Assembly (NCBI RefSeq): GCF_002115785.1
Contig: NZ_JFJY01000001.1
Coordinates: forward strand, 868,001 to 932,000
DNA from: Thalassospira sp. MCCC 1A03138
Lineage (GTDB): Bacteria > Pseudomonadota > Alphaproteobacteria > Rhodospirillales > Thalassospiraceae
Direction: 5' to 3'
DNA length: 64,000 nucleotides
Positions 18,550-22,613 of the stretch are shown one piece after another. How positions within the stretch are numbered: position 1 is the first letter of the stretch; the number at the start of each line of letters is the position of its first letter. Both the position numbers and the translations under genes were made by a program. The notes below the pieces were generated by a model, which saw only the letters and a list, made by a program, of their open reading frames with translations, was not told the DNA's origin and did no database searches.

Positions 18550-20589
18550 ATGAGCAAAAAAACAGTTCTTCTTGTCGGTGGCCTTGCCGTTCTGGCCGCC
18601 GCGGGTGCCGGTCTTCACTACAAGGCGCCTGCCTATCTAGAAAACCGGTTCCGCACGATCCTCAGCAGCCCGGACTCAGACCTTCGCGGCGAATTTTCCA
18701 ATTTCGAAATGTCGCTTCTAGGTCGCACATTGGCCGCCAAGAACGTCAAACTGATCGATCCTAACGGTGTGACCTACACCATCGGATCAATGCATCTCAA
18801 GCAGGTCAACTGGCTGACCCTGATCGGGGCAAACCCGTTTGGCAACGGCATTGCCGGTCAGGCCGATCTCGAAGAACTGGCAATTGCCTATGATGCCTAT
18901 GGCATCACCACCCCGAAGGCGGAACTTGGCGATCTTGCGATGGACCTGGCTTCGCGCAATTTCGACATCGCCACCGGTCGTGCTGATCTGCAAAACCTGA
19001 CCATTTCGGATGGCGACATCCGCCGCATCAATATTGATCACCTGCTGGCGGAAAATGCCGGTTCGGCCAATATCGATGCCCTGAACATCACCGGTTGGAA
19101 AATGGATGATCAGGAAACAAAAATCACCAGCAGCATCAACAATATGACCTTTGCCGGCTGTGCCGGACCGGCCGATCTGATCGCCAGTTTCGATCCCGAC
19201 ATTGCCCGCGATTTCGCCATCTGTGACGATATTTCGGCCACCACCTTGTCGTTTACCGATGACGCAGGCCTGGAAATGTCGGTTGATGCAATTGCCCTGT
19301 CGGGTCTGGAATCCCGGGTGATCAAATCCGGCACGCTGACCGGTCTGTCGATGCAGCAGCCAGACAATCCTGCCAGGCTTGCCATTGGCGAAATCTCACT
19401 TGCTGATTTCCGCGTCGATCTGACGGGTGACATGATTGATCTTGATACAAGGCTCAGCATGGCGGACGCCAGGAAGATGGTCGAAAACACCTCCTTCCAG
19501 ACAATCATCGTCAAAAACCCGGTAATTTCCGACGAGGAAGTCGAAATCGCGCTCGATAATGTCACATTACGCGACATGCGTGATGGCAGGCTTGCCGGGA
19601 TCGACATCACCGGAAGCCACATCACGCAGAAAACCCCGGACGGGCCCGCCAATTTCGGTCTGGACGGACTTTCCGTCACCGATCTGGATTTAATGGCAAT
19701 CACCGGCTTTGGCGAAATTTACGACGTTGCCGATGAAATGGTTGGTCAACATATCGACCAGTTCGAAGATTTCACACTGGGTCAGATGAACCTGCCGCTC
19801 AGTCAGGCGCTTTACGGTGCGTTTTCCATAAATGGCCTCTCATTCTCGGGCGCGCCGGACGGTGAAAAGGTCGAAATCCGGCTCGACAGCTTCAAAAGCG
19901 CCCTTGAAAAGCCTTTCACCCCTGAAAACAGCGCACTGACATTTGTCAAAATCAACAACAGCACCCTCGAAGGGCTGCATGCCACCCTTGATGACAGCAT
20001 TACCGGTGGCAACGATACCGCAATCTATCTTGGTATCAACAGCTTCGATGATCTTGTGCTGGATGTCTCCAACAGCATTATCTGGGATGAGACGGCTGGC
20101 GATTTTGTTTACAGCATCGACAAGGTTGCCCTGCGCGATATCGGTCAGATCGGCCTTTCGGTCACGGTCACCGGGATCAACGATGACGTCATGACCCGTC
20201 TTCTGAAAACCCGGATCGGCGATGACGCTGCACTCGAACAGGCCCTGACGGTTGACACGGCCTTCCGCGGTGCACGCCTTGAAATTTCAGGTGAAAAAAT
20301 GTTGCCTTTTGCCCTGGGCGTTGCCTCCCTGCTTAATGGCAACACCGCCGAAGACATGAAAATGCTGGTCACCATGAACCTGATGCAGGCGCAGGAACAA
20401 TTTGCCGACGACGCAACGCTTTATGATGCGTTTGGCGAATTGCTGGCATGGGTTGATGATCCGCGCCACCTGCTGATCGAACTGGCACCGCAGGAACCGG
20501 TTGCGATGGGCATGGCGGCCGGTGGCCTGATGTTCCCCCAGATGGGGGCGCAAATGCTGGGCCTTCGTATTACCGCCAACGGCCAATGA
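18550..20589 (+). CDS. Large anchored envelope protein of unknown function
   Basis: A 679-residue protein I cannot assign. It starts MSKKTVLLVGGLAVLAAAGA, an N-terminal hydrophobic segment (about residues 5-22) that would anchor it in the inner membrane or act as a signal peptide. The rest is probably periplasmic. It has many short beta-type segments with recurring forms such as LRDMRDGRLAGIDITGSH and ALRDIGQIGLSVTVTG, about 20% acidic residues and few cysteines. The pattern of an N-terminal anchor, an early GRTLAAKNVKLIDPNGVTY segment and long repeating beta stretches recalls AsmA-like or DUF945-type envelope proteins, but this is only an impression. It stands alone between two terminators. 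Confidence 0.85.
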   Translation: MSKKTVLLVGGLAVLAAAGAGLHYKAPAYLENRFRTILSSPDSDLRGEFSNFEMSLLGRTLAAKNVKLIDPNGVTYTIGSMHLKQVNWLTLIGANPFGNGIAGQADLEELAIAYDAYGITTPKAELGDLAMDLASRNFDIATGRADLQNLTISDGDIRRINIDHLLAENAGSANIDALNITGWKMDDQETKITSSINNMTFAGCAGPADLIASFDPDIARDFAICDDISATTLSFTDDAGLEMSVDAIALSGLESRVIKSGTLTGLSMQQPDNPARLAIGEISLADFRVDLTGDMIDLDTRLSMADARKMVENTSFQTIIVKNPVISDEEVEIALDNVTLRDMRDGRLAGIDITGSHITQKTPDGPANFGLDGLSVTDLDLMAITGFGEIYDVADEMVGQHIDQFEDFTLGQMNLPLSQALYGAFSINGLSFSGAPDGEKVEIRLDSFKSALEKPFTPENSALTFVKINNSTLEGLHATLDDSITGGNDTAIYLGINSFDDLVLDVSNSIIWDETAGDFVYSIDKVALRDIGQIGLSVTVTGINDDVMTRLLKTRIGDDAALEQALTVDTAFRGARLEISGEKMLPFALGVASLLNGNTAEDMKMLVTMNLMQAQEQFADDATLYDAFGELLAWVDDPRHLLIELAPQEPVAMGMAAGGLMFPQMGAQMLGLRITANGQ

Positions 20590-20608
20590 CAGCCGCAGAA
20601 TAAAAATA

Positions 20609-20641
20609 ACGGGCCGGATCGTGATGATCCGGCCCGTTTTC
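20609..20641. terminator. Intrinsic terminator after the 679-residue protein gene
   Basis: ACGGGCCGGATC (20609-20620), loop GTGAT, then GATCCGGCCCGT (20626-20637), a perfect 12-base-pair stem followed by TTTT. It lies between convergent genes and could serve both strands. Confidence 0.88.
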
Positions 20642-20645
20642 ATGT

Positions 20646-21527
20646 TCACGATCCAAGATCATCGAAACGCGCCAGTTTGTCGGGGTTTCGGTGGATGAAA
20701 ACATCCGTTATTGCGTTTTGGTGCATGGCCATACTGATGGCGGTCGCCACCCGGTCGCCTTCACGCACAAGCACCCAGTATTCCTGCCCGTCAACGGTCC
20801 TGAATTCAATGTCTTGCACCGGATTCTTGCGCCAGAGACCGACAAAGAACCGCGCAACCTTATCTGCACCGAATATCGGATTAACTGCGGCACTTGCCTT
20901 GCCTCCGCCATCGGAATGCATGATCACGTTCGGGGCCAGTTGCCCGATCAACGCGTTCAGATCACCGTGGATCAGGGCATCGACAAAGGCTGTGACCTGT
21001 TCCCTGTTTGCGGTCTCGCTATCTGGAACGGGGGTTGGATCACGGTCGTCTTCGCGGTTCACCCTGCGGCGTGCGCGAAACAGGATCTGGCGGGTATTGT
21101 TTTCGGTCCGCTCGATCACCGGGGCGATATCTTCGTGTGACCAGTCAAAAACGTCGTGCAGAACAAGTGCCACCCGTTCAACCGGTCCCAACCGTTCCAG
21201 CATCATGACATAGGCCTGCCCCAGGCCATCCCGTTCGATCAGGTTGTTTTCCGCTTCAGGAAAAACTGGCGGCACCCAGGGTTCGGGCAACCATTGCCCG
21301 ACATAATGTTCACGCCTGCGACGTGCCGATTTCAGAACATCAAGGCAGATATTGCTGCAGACCCGCACCAGCCAGCCGGTCGCATCGCGGATGTCATCCT
21401 TTGCCGCCGCCCGCCAGCGTAACCAGACATCCTGCACGGCATCTTCGGCATCGGCATGGCTGCCCAGCATACGATAAGCAAGGGCATGCAGCCGCCCGCG
21501 ATGGGTTTCGAAAACCTGATCTGCCAT
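20646..21527 (-). CDS. ECF41-type RNA polymerase sigma factor with fused C-terminal domain
   Basis: Extracytoplasmic-function sigma factor of 293 residues. I choose the ATG at 21527, preceded by GACGGGGATCGC; the frame is open 53 codons further upstream, but that part is unlike sigma factors. Region 2 covers residues 8-70 (AYRMLGSHADAEDAVQDVW) and region 4 about 105-155. The C-terminal SnoaL-like extension is the regulatory domain of group ECF41. All three signature motifs of that group are present: WLPEP at 79-83, DGGGK at 206-210 and NPDKL at 281-285. ECF41 factors usually have no anti-sigma gene and control a neighbouring carboxymuconolactone decarboxylase or oxidoreductase gene, which matches the AhpD-like gene upstream. 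Confidence 0.95.
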   Translation of the reverse strand: MADQVFETHRGRLHALAYRMLGSHADAEDAVQDVWLRWRAAAKDDIRDATGWLVRVCSNICLDVLKSARRRREHYVGQWLPEPWVPPVFPEAENNLIERDGLGQAYVMMLERLGPVERVALVLHDVFDWSHEDIAPVIERTENNTRQILFRARRRVNREDDRDPTPVPDSETANREQVTAFVDALIHGDLNALIGQLAPNVIMHSDGGGKASAAVNPIFGADKVARFFVGLWRKNPVQDIEFRTVDGQEYWVLVREGDRVATAISMAMHQNAITDVFIHRNPDKLARFDDLGS

Positions 21528-21641
21528 GCGATCCCCGTCAAACACATGAAGCGATACGGGACAGGCCCGTATCGCCGATTTGGAGGTCATCCTGCCCGAT
21601 AGGTCTGACGAAGCAAAGACCCTATCGGATCGGGGATTGCG

Positions 21642-22080
21642 ATCAGGCAAACTCATGCTGCGCAATACCAAGACGGTTCCAGGCATTCATCGTTGAAATG
21701 ATGCAGGTCAGCTCGGAAATGGCGTCTTTTTCGAAATGATCGACAAGATTGCGATAGCTTTGCGAAATACGGTCCTGATCCACCGCCTCGGTCAGGCATT
21801 CGGCCCAGTCAAGTGCTGCCCGTTCGGCTTCGTCATATCCCTTGGCCGCGCGCCAGACCGCCAGCATGGTCACCTTGATCGCATCGCCGCCGTGATCGGC
21901 ATGACTTTTGGAATGCATGCGCAGGCAATGCGAACATCCATTGATTTGCGACACTCGGCATTCCAGCAGATCGCGCAGGACACGCGGGATCTGCGGGTTA
22001 TCTTCAAGGCTGCTGGCAAGACCCAGCATCGCTTCAAAAATTTTCGGGCTCGATTTCGGAACGTCAAAACGGCTCATCAT
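21642..22080 (-). CDS. AhpD-like carboxymuconolactone decarboxylase family protein
   Basis: All-helical protein of 145 residues with the AhpD-type active site Cys49-Ser-His-Cys52 followed by His56 (NGCSHCLRMH), and a conserved Glu about nine residues earlier. Members are small thiol peroxidases or disulfide reductants; carboxymuconolactone decarboxylases proper lack the CxxC. The ATG at 22080 follows GGAGAAAC. The frame runs 14 codons further upstream without a better start. It is the likely target of the adjacent ECF41 sigma factor. The annotated right boundary is the start; the stop is at 21643-21645. Confidence 0.93.
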
Positions 22081-22126
22081 GTTTCTCCGTGATTGCAAAC
22101 CGGGGGGAATCTCCCTCTGCAATCAG

Positions 22127-22153
22127 GACGAAACAGCTATGGTCCGCGTTACA
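22127..22153 (-). promoter_or_regulatory. Candidate ECF41-dependent promoter for the AhpD-like gene
   Basis: On the minus strand TGTAACG (22153-22147) lies exactly 16 bases before CGTC (22130-22127). The consensus I recall for ECF41 target promoters is TGTCACA in the -35 region and CGTC in the -10 region with this spacing, so the site matches 5 of 7 and 4 of 4. It is about 47 bases before the ATG of the AhpD-like gene. Confidence 0.55.
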
Positions 22154-22187: not shown

Positions 22188-22613
22188 CTATACGATGCGG
22201 GTCTTTTTCAAGGCTTCGACGACCTCTTCATGCATGACCCAATGCCAGTCTTCGCTATTTTGCTGTTCACCATCTGCCAGCGTAAAGACCGCCGCCAGAT
22301 AATCGCTGACATCGGATTTGCACATCGGCAATTCGGCCGCGAGGGCGATTTTTTGCGCCAATTTGCCGTATTTCCTGTTCCCGATCCGGGACCCGAAATG
22401 ACCAATCGTATTTGCCAGTTGATTACCGGTAATTTCGCGCCCCGGTGCCTTGGCATGGGCGCGCAGCATGTCGCGTTCGCAACTTGACATATCAATGGAT
22501 CGAAGCGCCCGGACATAGTCCTCAACGCGGCCGATATGGGGGCCGGTGCGATGGGTGATCTGGGTGGAATATGCACGTGCGCCCGGGGTTTCCCGGTGAG
22601 TCATGTTCTGCAT
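22188..22613 (-). CDS. Hypothetical protein, 141 residues
   Basis: Starts at 22613 with an excellent GGGAGGAAACAAC site. The protein has no signal or membrane segment. The middle (about residues 52-90) contains LRAHAKAPGREITGNQLANT followed by RKYGKLAQKIA, which looks like a compact helix-turn-helix or winged-helix unit. I recall similar APGR-x-ITxxQLA...YGKLA segments in HNH-endonuclease-associated and other uncharacterised proteins, but cannot confirm a family. It reads toward the AhpD-like gene, with about 107 bases between. Confidence 0.75.
   Translation of the reverse strand: MQNMTHRETPGARAYSTQITHRTGPHIGRVEDYVRALRSIDMSSCERDMLRAHAKAPGREITGNQLANTIGHFGSRIGNRKYGKLAQKIALAAELPMCKSDVSDYLAAVFTLADGEQQNSEDWHWVMHEEVVEALKKTRIV

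Follow-up and report, generated by a model that had tools for sequence, protein, structure and literature searches.

An ECF41 sigma factor of Thalassospira with an altered recognition helix and an accompanying change in the -35 box before its carboxymuconolactone decarboxylase gene

Introduction

ECF41 is a widespread group of sigma factors for which one promoter consensus, TGTCACA-N16-CGTC, has been described (PMC3426412). The window analyzed here, a stretch of 64,000 nucleotides from Thalassospira sp. MCCC 1A03138, contains an ECF41 gene whose candidate promoter departs from this consensus at two of its 11 defined bases. This raises the question of whether such a departure is a tolerable imperfection, as an earlier note on this DNA had treated it, or whether the sigma factor and its promoter have changed specificity together. 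In addition, the bases that follow the promoter are complementary to the ribosome-binding site of the gene that it precedes, raising the further question of what the promoter DNA does when it is transcribed from elsewhere.

The ECF41 sigma factor and its operon

The sigma factor gene (20646..21527, minus strand) encodes a 293-aa protein composed of sigma2, a WLPEP linker, sigma4, and a SnoaL-like C-terminal extension; its open reading frame spans 20646-21686 (-), with the conserved part starting from 21527. The protein scores 303.5 bits against the NCBIfam SigJ model (cut-off 271) and matches the Pfam families of sigma regions 2 and 4_2 (r2 and r4_2), and its SnoaL_2 match, at 26.8 bits, lies slightly below the cut-off of 27. 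The genome of Thalassospira sp. MCCC 1A03138 (G000, 4.56 Mb) contains nine matches to the SigJ model, of which the sigma factor of the window is the sole one above the cut-off. The assignment to ECF41 made in the earlier note is borne out by the SigJ score, the sigma2 and sigma4 domains, and the extension of approximately 100 aa with its SnoaL-like domain, and the protein contains each of the three motifs on which that note had drawn (WLPEP, DGGGK, and NPDKL). WLPEP follows PMC3426412, and the names DGGGK and NPDKL, which are absent from the available text of that paper, are those of the earlier note. Orthologues of this ECF41 protein were found in 29/29 genus genomes searched, with WLPEP conserved in 29/29, DGGGK in 26/29, and NPDKL in 27/29; the corresponding counts outside the genus are 98/127, 74/127, and 76/127. 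As in characterized ECF41 proteins, the SnoaL-like extension would restrain the sigma factor. No anti-sigma family was recognized with Pfam and NCBIfam among the four neighbors tested, and the genes at 22188-22613 and 18550-20589 match no family in these collections. Between the sigma gene (-) and the convergent gene 18550-20589 (+) lies a long GC-rich stem (20608-20638) with a T-rich tail on the minus strand, which is a probable terminator.

Read along the minus strand, the locus consists of a gene without a known family (22188-22613), the promoter (22153-22127), a gene of the AhpD-like carboxymuconolactone decarboxylase (CMD) family (21643-22077), and the sigma factor gene (20646-21527). The CMD protein (21643..22077, minus strand; 144 aa from the conserved start MSRF) has a Pfam CMD match and the motif NGCSHC, confirming that an AhpD-like CxxC protein is encoded directly upstream of the sigma factor. 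The redox function that had been attached to the pair has this CxxC motif as its whole basis and should be read as a suggestion. A CMD-like open reading frame is located immediately upstream of ECF41 on the same strand in 29/29 genus genomes. The window thereby has the commonest of the paired ECF41 arrangements, that with an upstream same-strand target, which accounts for 107/373 (PMC3426412).

Between the CMD stop and the sigma start, an intercistronic hairpin (21550..21576, minus strand) forms an 11-bp stem that covaries within the genus. A simple search recovered a stem of 10-15 bp at this place in 28/29 genomes, and in the fold of G014 the stem is closed by a larger loop. Across 28 sequences (20 distinct), 99.1% of cells pair, sliding the arms destroys the pairing, and 21 two-sided changes were counted vs 6.8 in shuffles; two of the five measures are not clearly above the shuffles, namely the pairs with two-sided changes (26/500) and further pair types (260/500). 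The likeliest organization is one CMD-sigma operon, in which an internal RNA element would allow different amounts of CMD and sigma factor to be made.

The promoter before the CMD gene

The promoter consists of the -35 box TGTAACG (22147..22153, minus strand), which carries a genus-specific A at -33, and the -10 box CGTC (22127..22130, minus strand). As had been reported, the resulting TGTAACG-N16-CGTC at 22153-22127 (-) agrees with TGTCACA-N16-CGTC at 9/11 bases (PMC3426412). The published sequence is not matched in full, and because it is a consensus and not an absolute criterion, the system is classed here as a variant of ECF41.

The occurrence of the motif by itself carries little information. 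A search of the genome for TGTMACR-N16-CGTC, which had been proposed as a check, returned 6 sites, as did a backward control (6), placing the motif alone at chance level. Over the 29 genus genomes, TGTAACR-N16-CGTC was found 93 times vs 153 for the control, and TGTCACR sites 108 times vs 89. With TGTAACR at or below the control and TGTCACR near it, genome-wide counts were rejected as evidence. The position before the CMD gene, unlike the motif alone, exceeds chance: TGTAAC[AG]-N16-CGTC precedes the CMD gene in 28/29 congeners, and the 29th (G003) has CGTAACG. The view of the two mismatches as tolerable imperfections does not hold for -33, which is fixed genus-wide and is accompanied by a changed helix; the seventh base, in contrast, is A in some loci and G in others, both inside and outside the genus.

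Changes in the -35 box and the recognition helix

All 28 perfect CMD sites of the genus read TGTAAC, and none reads TGTCAC there, whereas the 124 ECF41 loci outside this lineage comprise 81 with TGTCAC, 0 with TGTAAC, and 43 with no perfect site. The pattern used for these counts left the fourth base open (TGTNAC, spacer 15-17, CGTC); it gives TGTAAC in 28 and nothing in 1 of the genus loci. The outside sample was drawn from ECF41 hits in the order, class, and phylum and from 19 non-Thalassospira loci of named organisms, and covers 2 of the 24 class hits without a locus and all but 8 of the non-genus phylum hits; it contains 124 sequences after removal of three duplicates, two of the 124 being the second ECF41 of Thalassospira genomes.

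The other side of the contact has changed as well. The sigma4.2 recognition helix is encoded at 21063..21101 (minus strand) and corresponds to residues 143-155 (NNTRQILFRARRR). Phe150 is found in 29/29 genus proteins and in 0/124 outside, and the same holds for Asn143 (29/29 vs 0/124). A total of 17 positions of the sigma factor separate the genus from 77 outside sequences; 12 lie outside the helix, and five lie within its 13 residues (Asn143, Asn144, Leu149, Phe150, and Lys155), with Asn144 and Lys155 present in 28/29 genus sigma factors. Alignment of E. coli sigmaE (GTVRSRIFRAR) with the Thalassospira helix (NNTRQILFRAR) places Phe150 at Phe175 of sigmaE, and the changed base falls at -33 when the -35 boxes are lined up by their AC. 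In the known complexes, Phe175 of sigmaE contacts T'-33 and His174 of sigmaW contacts T'-32/T'-33, these being the template Ts opposite A-33/A-32 (PMC6713349). In a tree built without the helix columns by a quick method, and rooted at the midpoint for drawing, the genus forms one clade (SH-aLRT 100) beside or among TGTCAC lineages; the change therefore appears to be derived and to have occurred once.

In the ancestry of Thalassospira, the sigma4.2 helix would have changed from roughly AA.RQLA.RAR to NN.RQILFRAR, and the -35 box of the main target would have changed in step from TGTCAC to TGTAAC. Like Phe175 of E. coli sigmaE, Phe150 probably lies packed against the T that faces A-33. Phe150 and its neighbors may be the cause of the changed preference, and the sigma factor itself would transcribe TGTAAC promoters. 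The preferred reading, to which we assign a probability of about 70%, is that the CMD-sigma operon is autoregulated and driven by its own ECF41, and that the helix and the -35 box of the main target changed together in the Thalassospira lineage. At the level of sequence, this reading draws on two fixed changes that are confined to the genus within the sample, and on an NmrA-like promoter (see below) whose -33 base fits the helix present. The imperfect promoter match would then represent a fixed, helix-matched change of specificity at the main target.

Some considerations weigh against a coupling of helix and -35 box. The helix change happened once, which leaves one event from which to judge the coupling, and the genus is also set apart by 12 positions that are not in the helix. 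In addition, 15 outside proteins have His at position 150, and the 12 of them with a detected site all have TGTCAC; therefore, an aromatic residue at position 150 alone is not enough.

The NmrA-like gene and a second ECF41

A further case is offered by an NmrA-like gene, which is present in 6/29 genus genomes. In G007, G008, and G028, it heads an NmrA-CMD-ECF41b cluster, and these genomes contain two ECF41 types each (L040, L041, L225-L227, L258). Their ECF41b has an ordinary helix, and the NmrA-like promoter beside it has TGTCAC in G007 and G028 and CGTCAC in G008, as read from the printed sequence. In G010 and G011 the promoter of the NmrA-like gene has TGTAAC, and in G019 it has TATAAC; no ECF41b was found in these three genomes, which have the variant sigma factor only. 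The -33 base at the NmrA-like gene follows the helix of the sigma factor present in 6/6 genomes, and as these six cases form two groups of close relatives, they amount to approximately one more event. No perfect site immediately precedes the CMD gene of the second ECF41 (L040, L041), a point against the preferred reading; in this cluster the site stands before the NmrA-like gene. Compared with its counterpart in G007, the second ECF41 of G028 (L258, 2114-2845) lacks 49 residues inside the C-terminal extension with no frame break, and is possibly an unregulated or dead regulator.

Pairing of the leader with the Shine-Dalgarno sequence

The bases that follow the -10 box form the 5' arm TCCTGATTGCA (22118..22128, minus strand), which runs from the end of that box to the predicted start A22118. 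It pairs with the 3' arm TGCAATCACGGA (22086..22097, minus strand), which overlaps the Shine-Dalgarno sequence CGGAG of the CMD gene (22085-22089). The start is predicted from other species. For the ECF41 systems of R. sphaeroides and B. licheniformis, PMC3426412 describes a leader of 22/23 bases after the mapped start, whereas its Table 5 gives 32 and 31; the difference of 9 is read as the number of bases by which the start is separated from CGTC. The promoter string of S. meliloti RpoE9 ends 9 bases after CGTC; its start mark is lost in the plain text, and another entry of the same table marks the last letter in lower case (PMC6180224). A start at A22118, approximately 9 bases after CGTC, is accordingly a prediction for the window. 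With such a start, most of the 5' arm would be untranscribed from the ECF41 promoter and would occur only in read-through RNA.

The promoter may consequently double as an RNA insulator. In read-through RNA, the 5' arm would mask the Shine-Dalgarno sequence and block translation of CMD, whereas transcripts from the ECF41 promoter would start beyond that arm, leaving their Shine-Dalgarno sequence more accessible. Such an insulator would complement the autoregulated operon proposed above; it is attractive but unproved, and we place its probability a little short of even. A possible source of read-through RNA is the codirectional upstream gene (22188..22613, minus strand; 141 aa, no Pfam or NCBIfam match), the stop of which lies 34 bases before the -35 box. 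By tblastn, homologues of this 141-aa protein are encoded in the same direction immediately upstream of the operon in 26/29 congeners and about 1 kb further up, also in the same direction, in G003 and G014 (28/29 with a homologue upstream, two of them about 1 kb away); in G025, the codirectional gene immediately upstream of the operon is a cyclopropane synthase, so that a codirectional gene directly adjoins the CMD promoter in 27/29. Within the genus, tblastn replaced the automatic reading of upstream orientation, which long antisense frames make unreliable there; outside the genus, the automatic reading was used.

Several comparisons favor base pairing of the two arms. The post-CGTC bases pair with the Shine-Dalgarno segment over 9-12 bp in 29/29 genomes, and duplexes of an organism's own arms have a mean of -14.6 kcal/mol vs -9.8 kcal/mol with partners from other clades. 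The own pair is better than the cross mean in 28/29, the exception being G018, whose own pair is no better. In an exact permutation over 8 clade representatives, 6/40320 arrangements do as well as the own arms, with clades that had been defined by visual comparison of the leaders. This arm-swap test took the place of pair counting in a MAFFT alignment of the leaders, in which arms and loops misalign. Scored against shuffles, arm pairing has a mean z of -4.0 in the genus and -0.98 at control loci of other taxa (n=50). An arm permutation on 61 outside loci (0/5000) was discarded, as it was probably inflated by shared base composition, and the shuffle mean z of -0.68 was kept for these. Two single outside loci, L126 from the class and L100 from the order, display strong pairing between the post-CGTC bases and the Shine-Dalgarno sequence (z about -3 to -4.7).

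The energetics are less uniform. The ribosome site takes 17.6 kcal/mol to open in read-through RNA, compared with 8.2 kcal/mol in the short RNA and 11.5 kcal/mol with the arm shuffled, and read-through RNA is the harder to open in 29/29; however, longer RNA opens less easily in general, and the read-through value was reached by none of 40 arm shuffles in 15/29 genomes only, with 27/40 reaching it in G006. The probability that the Shine-Dalgarno sequence is unpaired is higher for the short RNA in only 20/29, and the order is reversed in the window's own clade (0.22 in read-through RNA vs 0.14). Outside the genus, pairing is slightly stronger where the upstream frame is codirectional (z -0.99, n 25) than where it is opposed (z -0.42, n 35), a weak effect (one-sided p=0.036) obtained with a crude reading of orientation. 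The insulator further relies on a start that in Thalassospira is a predicted one, with which the RpoE9 string ending 9 bases after CGTC agrees, and it has a precedent in phage T4 late genes such as I-TevI (PMC2988022).

Other candidate sites and the extent of the regulon

The description of the CMD-sigma pair as self-contained is doubtful, because TGTAACA-N16-CGTC also occurs before a PadR-RND operon (20/29) and, in two other genomes, before the NmrA-like gene. The former operon encodes a PadR regulator, an HlyD-like protein, and an RND pump, and is preceded by a perfect site in 20/29, a site with one mismatch in 2, and none in 7; in the window's genome, the site lies outside the window at G000:C1:334054-334080 (L090, L219). 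Across the genus, the spacers of this site have diverged and its boxes have been kept. More than 100 bases separate the site from the PadR gene, and a TTGACT judged by eye to be sigma70-like is nearer, so ECF41 control of the PadR-RND operon is put forward as a prediction.

The window's genome also contains, beyond the window itself, a perfect TGTCACA-N16-CGTC at G000:C1:325821-325847 (L089); a 324-aa open reading frame begins 48 bases downstream. Like sites are present in G001, G007, G008, and G027, with a comparable frame 58-64 bases downstream in G001 and G027. This recurrent TGTCACA site counts against a full re-wiring, as some candidate sites appear to be unchanged. By eye, a divergent frame adjoining the site at G000:C1:325821 resembles Cu/Zn superoxide dismutase. 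For the three remaining TGTMACR sites of this genome, no open reading frame of at least 80 aa starts within 300 bases downstream. A different TGTCACA sequence that recurs unchanged in many congeners was set aside; in G004, the genome examined, it lies inside a 527-codon open frame.

These sites bear on whether TGTAAC-N16-CGTC belongs to ECF41 at all or to another ECF sigma factor of the genome, an attribution that we regard as improbable. AAC and CGT are general ECF features (PMC3426412), and TGTAAC also stands before rpoE7 (ECF16) in S. meliloti. The genome has 8 weaker sigma matches to the SigJ model and may have ECF factors beyond these, but 0/6 own-genome sites lie within 100 kb of these 8, and the site adjoins the ECF41 operon in 28/29 genomes. 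A different sigma factor would also suit the TGTCACA site, which has been kept in five genomes of the window's clade, among them three without a second ECF41; at the NmrA-like gene, however, it is the ECF41 helix that the -33 base follows.

Alternative readings of the leader hairpin

If transcription started further upstream than at other ECF41 promoters, the whole hairpin would lie within the normal transcript and could act as a thermometer or riboswitch of CMD. A covarying stem over a Shine-Dalgarno sequence is the usual form of such elements, but ECF41 starts of other species appear to fall some 9 bases downstream of CGTC, beyond the greater part of the 5' arm, the loop shows no sequence conservation, and no Rfam match at the gathering score was found in the window between 20500 and 22800, making this reading quite improbable. 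The inverted repeat is very unlikely to be the DNA operator of some repressor overlapping the start site: dyad symmetry surrounds the start region, and a second inverted repeat surrounds the -35 box in many congeners, yet the arms differ between clades while remaining complementary and the distance between them varies, which fits base pairing better than protein binding. The second repeat is GC-rich, forms a strong hairpin with the TGTAAC box in its loop (L017, L018, L019, L025, L030, and others), and is perhaps a terminator of the upstream gene; this hairpin is absent in the window itself (z +0.9) and was therefore unused as evidence.

Significance and comparison with known systems

A wider picture would combine a genus-wide re-wiring of helix and promoters, two orthogonal ECF41 circuits where both kinds have been kept, and promoter DNA that serves as a read-through lock; taken together, these claims are doubtful, and the preferred reading stays with the autoregulated operon and its jointly changed helix and -35 box. 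Within the open-licence ECF41 literature, no report of the TGTAAC/helix variant was seen among the matches listed, which do not include the 2021 ECF re-classification, and the variant may correspond to a described subgroup. Among the literature matches listed, none concerned this variant under sigma/-35 co-evolution or read-through masking at sigma promoters. With both sides of the sigma4/-35 contact changed and an NmrA-like gene available in either version, the determinants of -35 recognition become testable by a few swaps. In addition, the Thalassospira ECF41 and its promoter may offer an orthogonal sigma/promoter pair, and the read-through lock, if true, would give a bacterium a simple means of silencing a stress gene that is surrounded by active genes.

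Among solved structures, the top sequence match of the window's sigma factor is M. tuberculosis SigJ (PDB 5xe7, E 1.2e-40), which, unlike the window's protein, has an ordinary ECF41 helix (RQLASRAR). S. meliloti RpoE9, another ECF41 protein, likewise has a CMD gene upstream, likely in one operon, but its -35 box is TGTCAC, and the available text gives the CMD gene as its only detected target (PMC6180224). The layout proposed for the leader resembles that of phage T4 I-TevI, for which the late promoter's own transcripts cannot form the masking hairpin; I-TevI is one of several T4 genes with hairpin-masked ribosome sites, soc, e, and others being named as well (PMC2988022). The T4 case involves a phage promoter, whereas Thalassospira would have an ECF promoter on a bacterial chromosome, with a layout deduced purely from sequence. 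The closest counterparts are the ECF41 systems of R. sphaeroides and B. licheniformis (Wecke et al. 2012, PMC3426412), which share with Thalassospira the domain plan, the WLPEP linker, the C-terminal extension, the CMD target, the N16 spacing, and the CGTC -10 box. Thalassospira differs from them in having TGTAAC in place of TGTCAC at -35, an altered recognition helix, a longer leader with Shine-Dalgarno pairing, an intercistronic hairpin, and a probable extra target.
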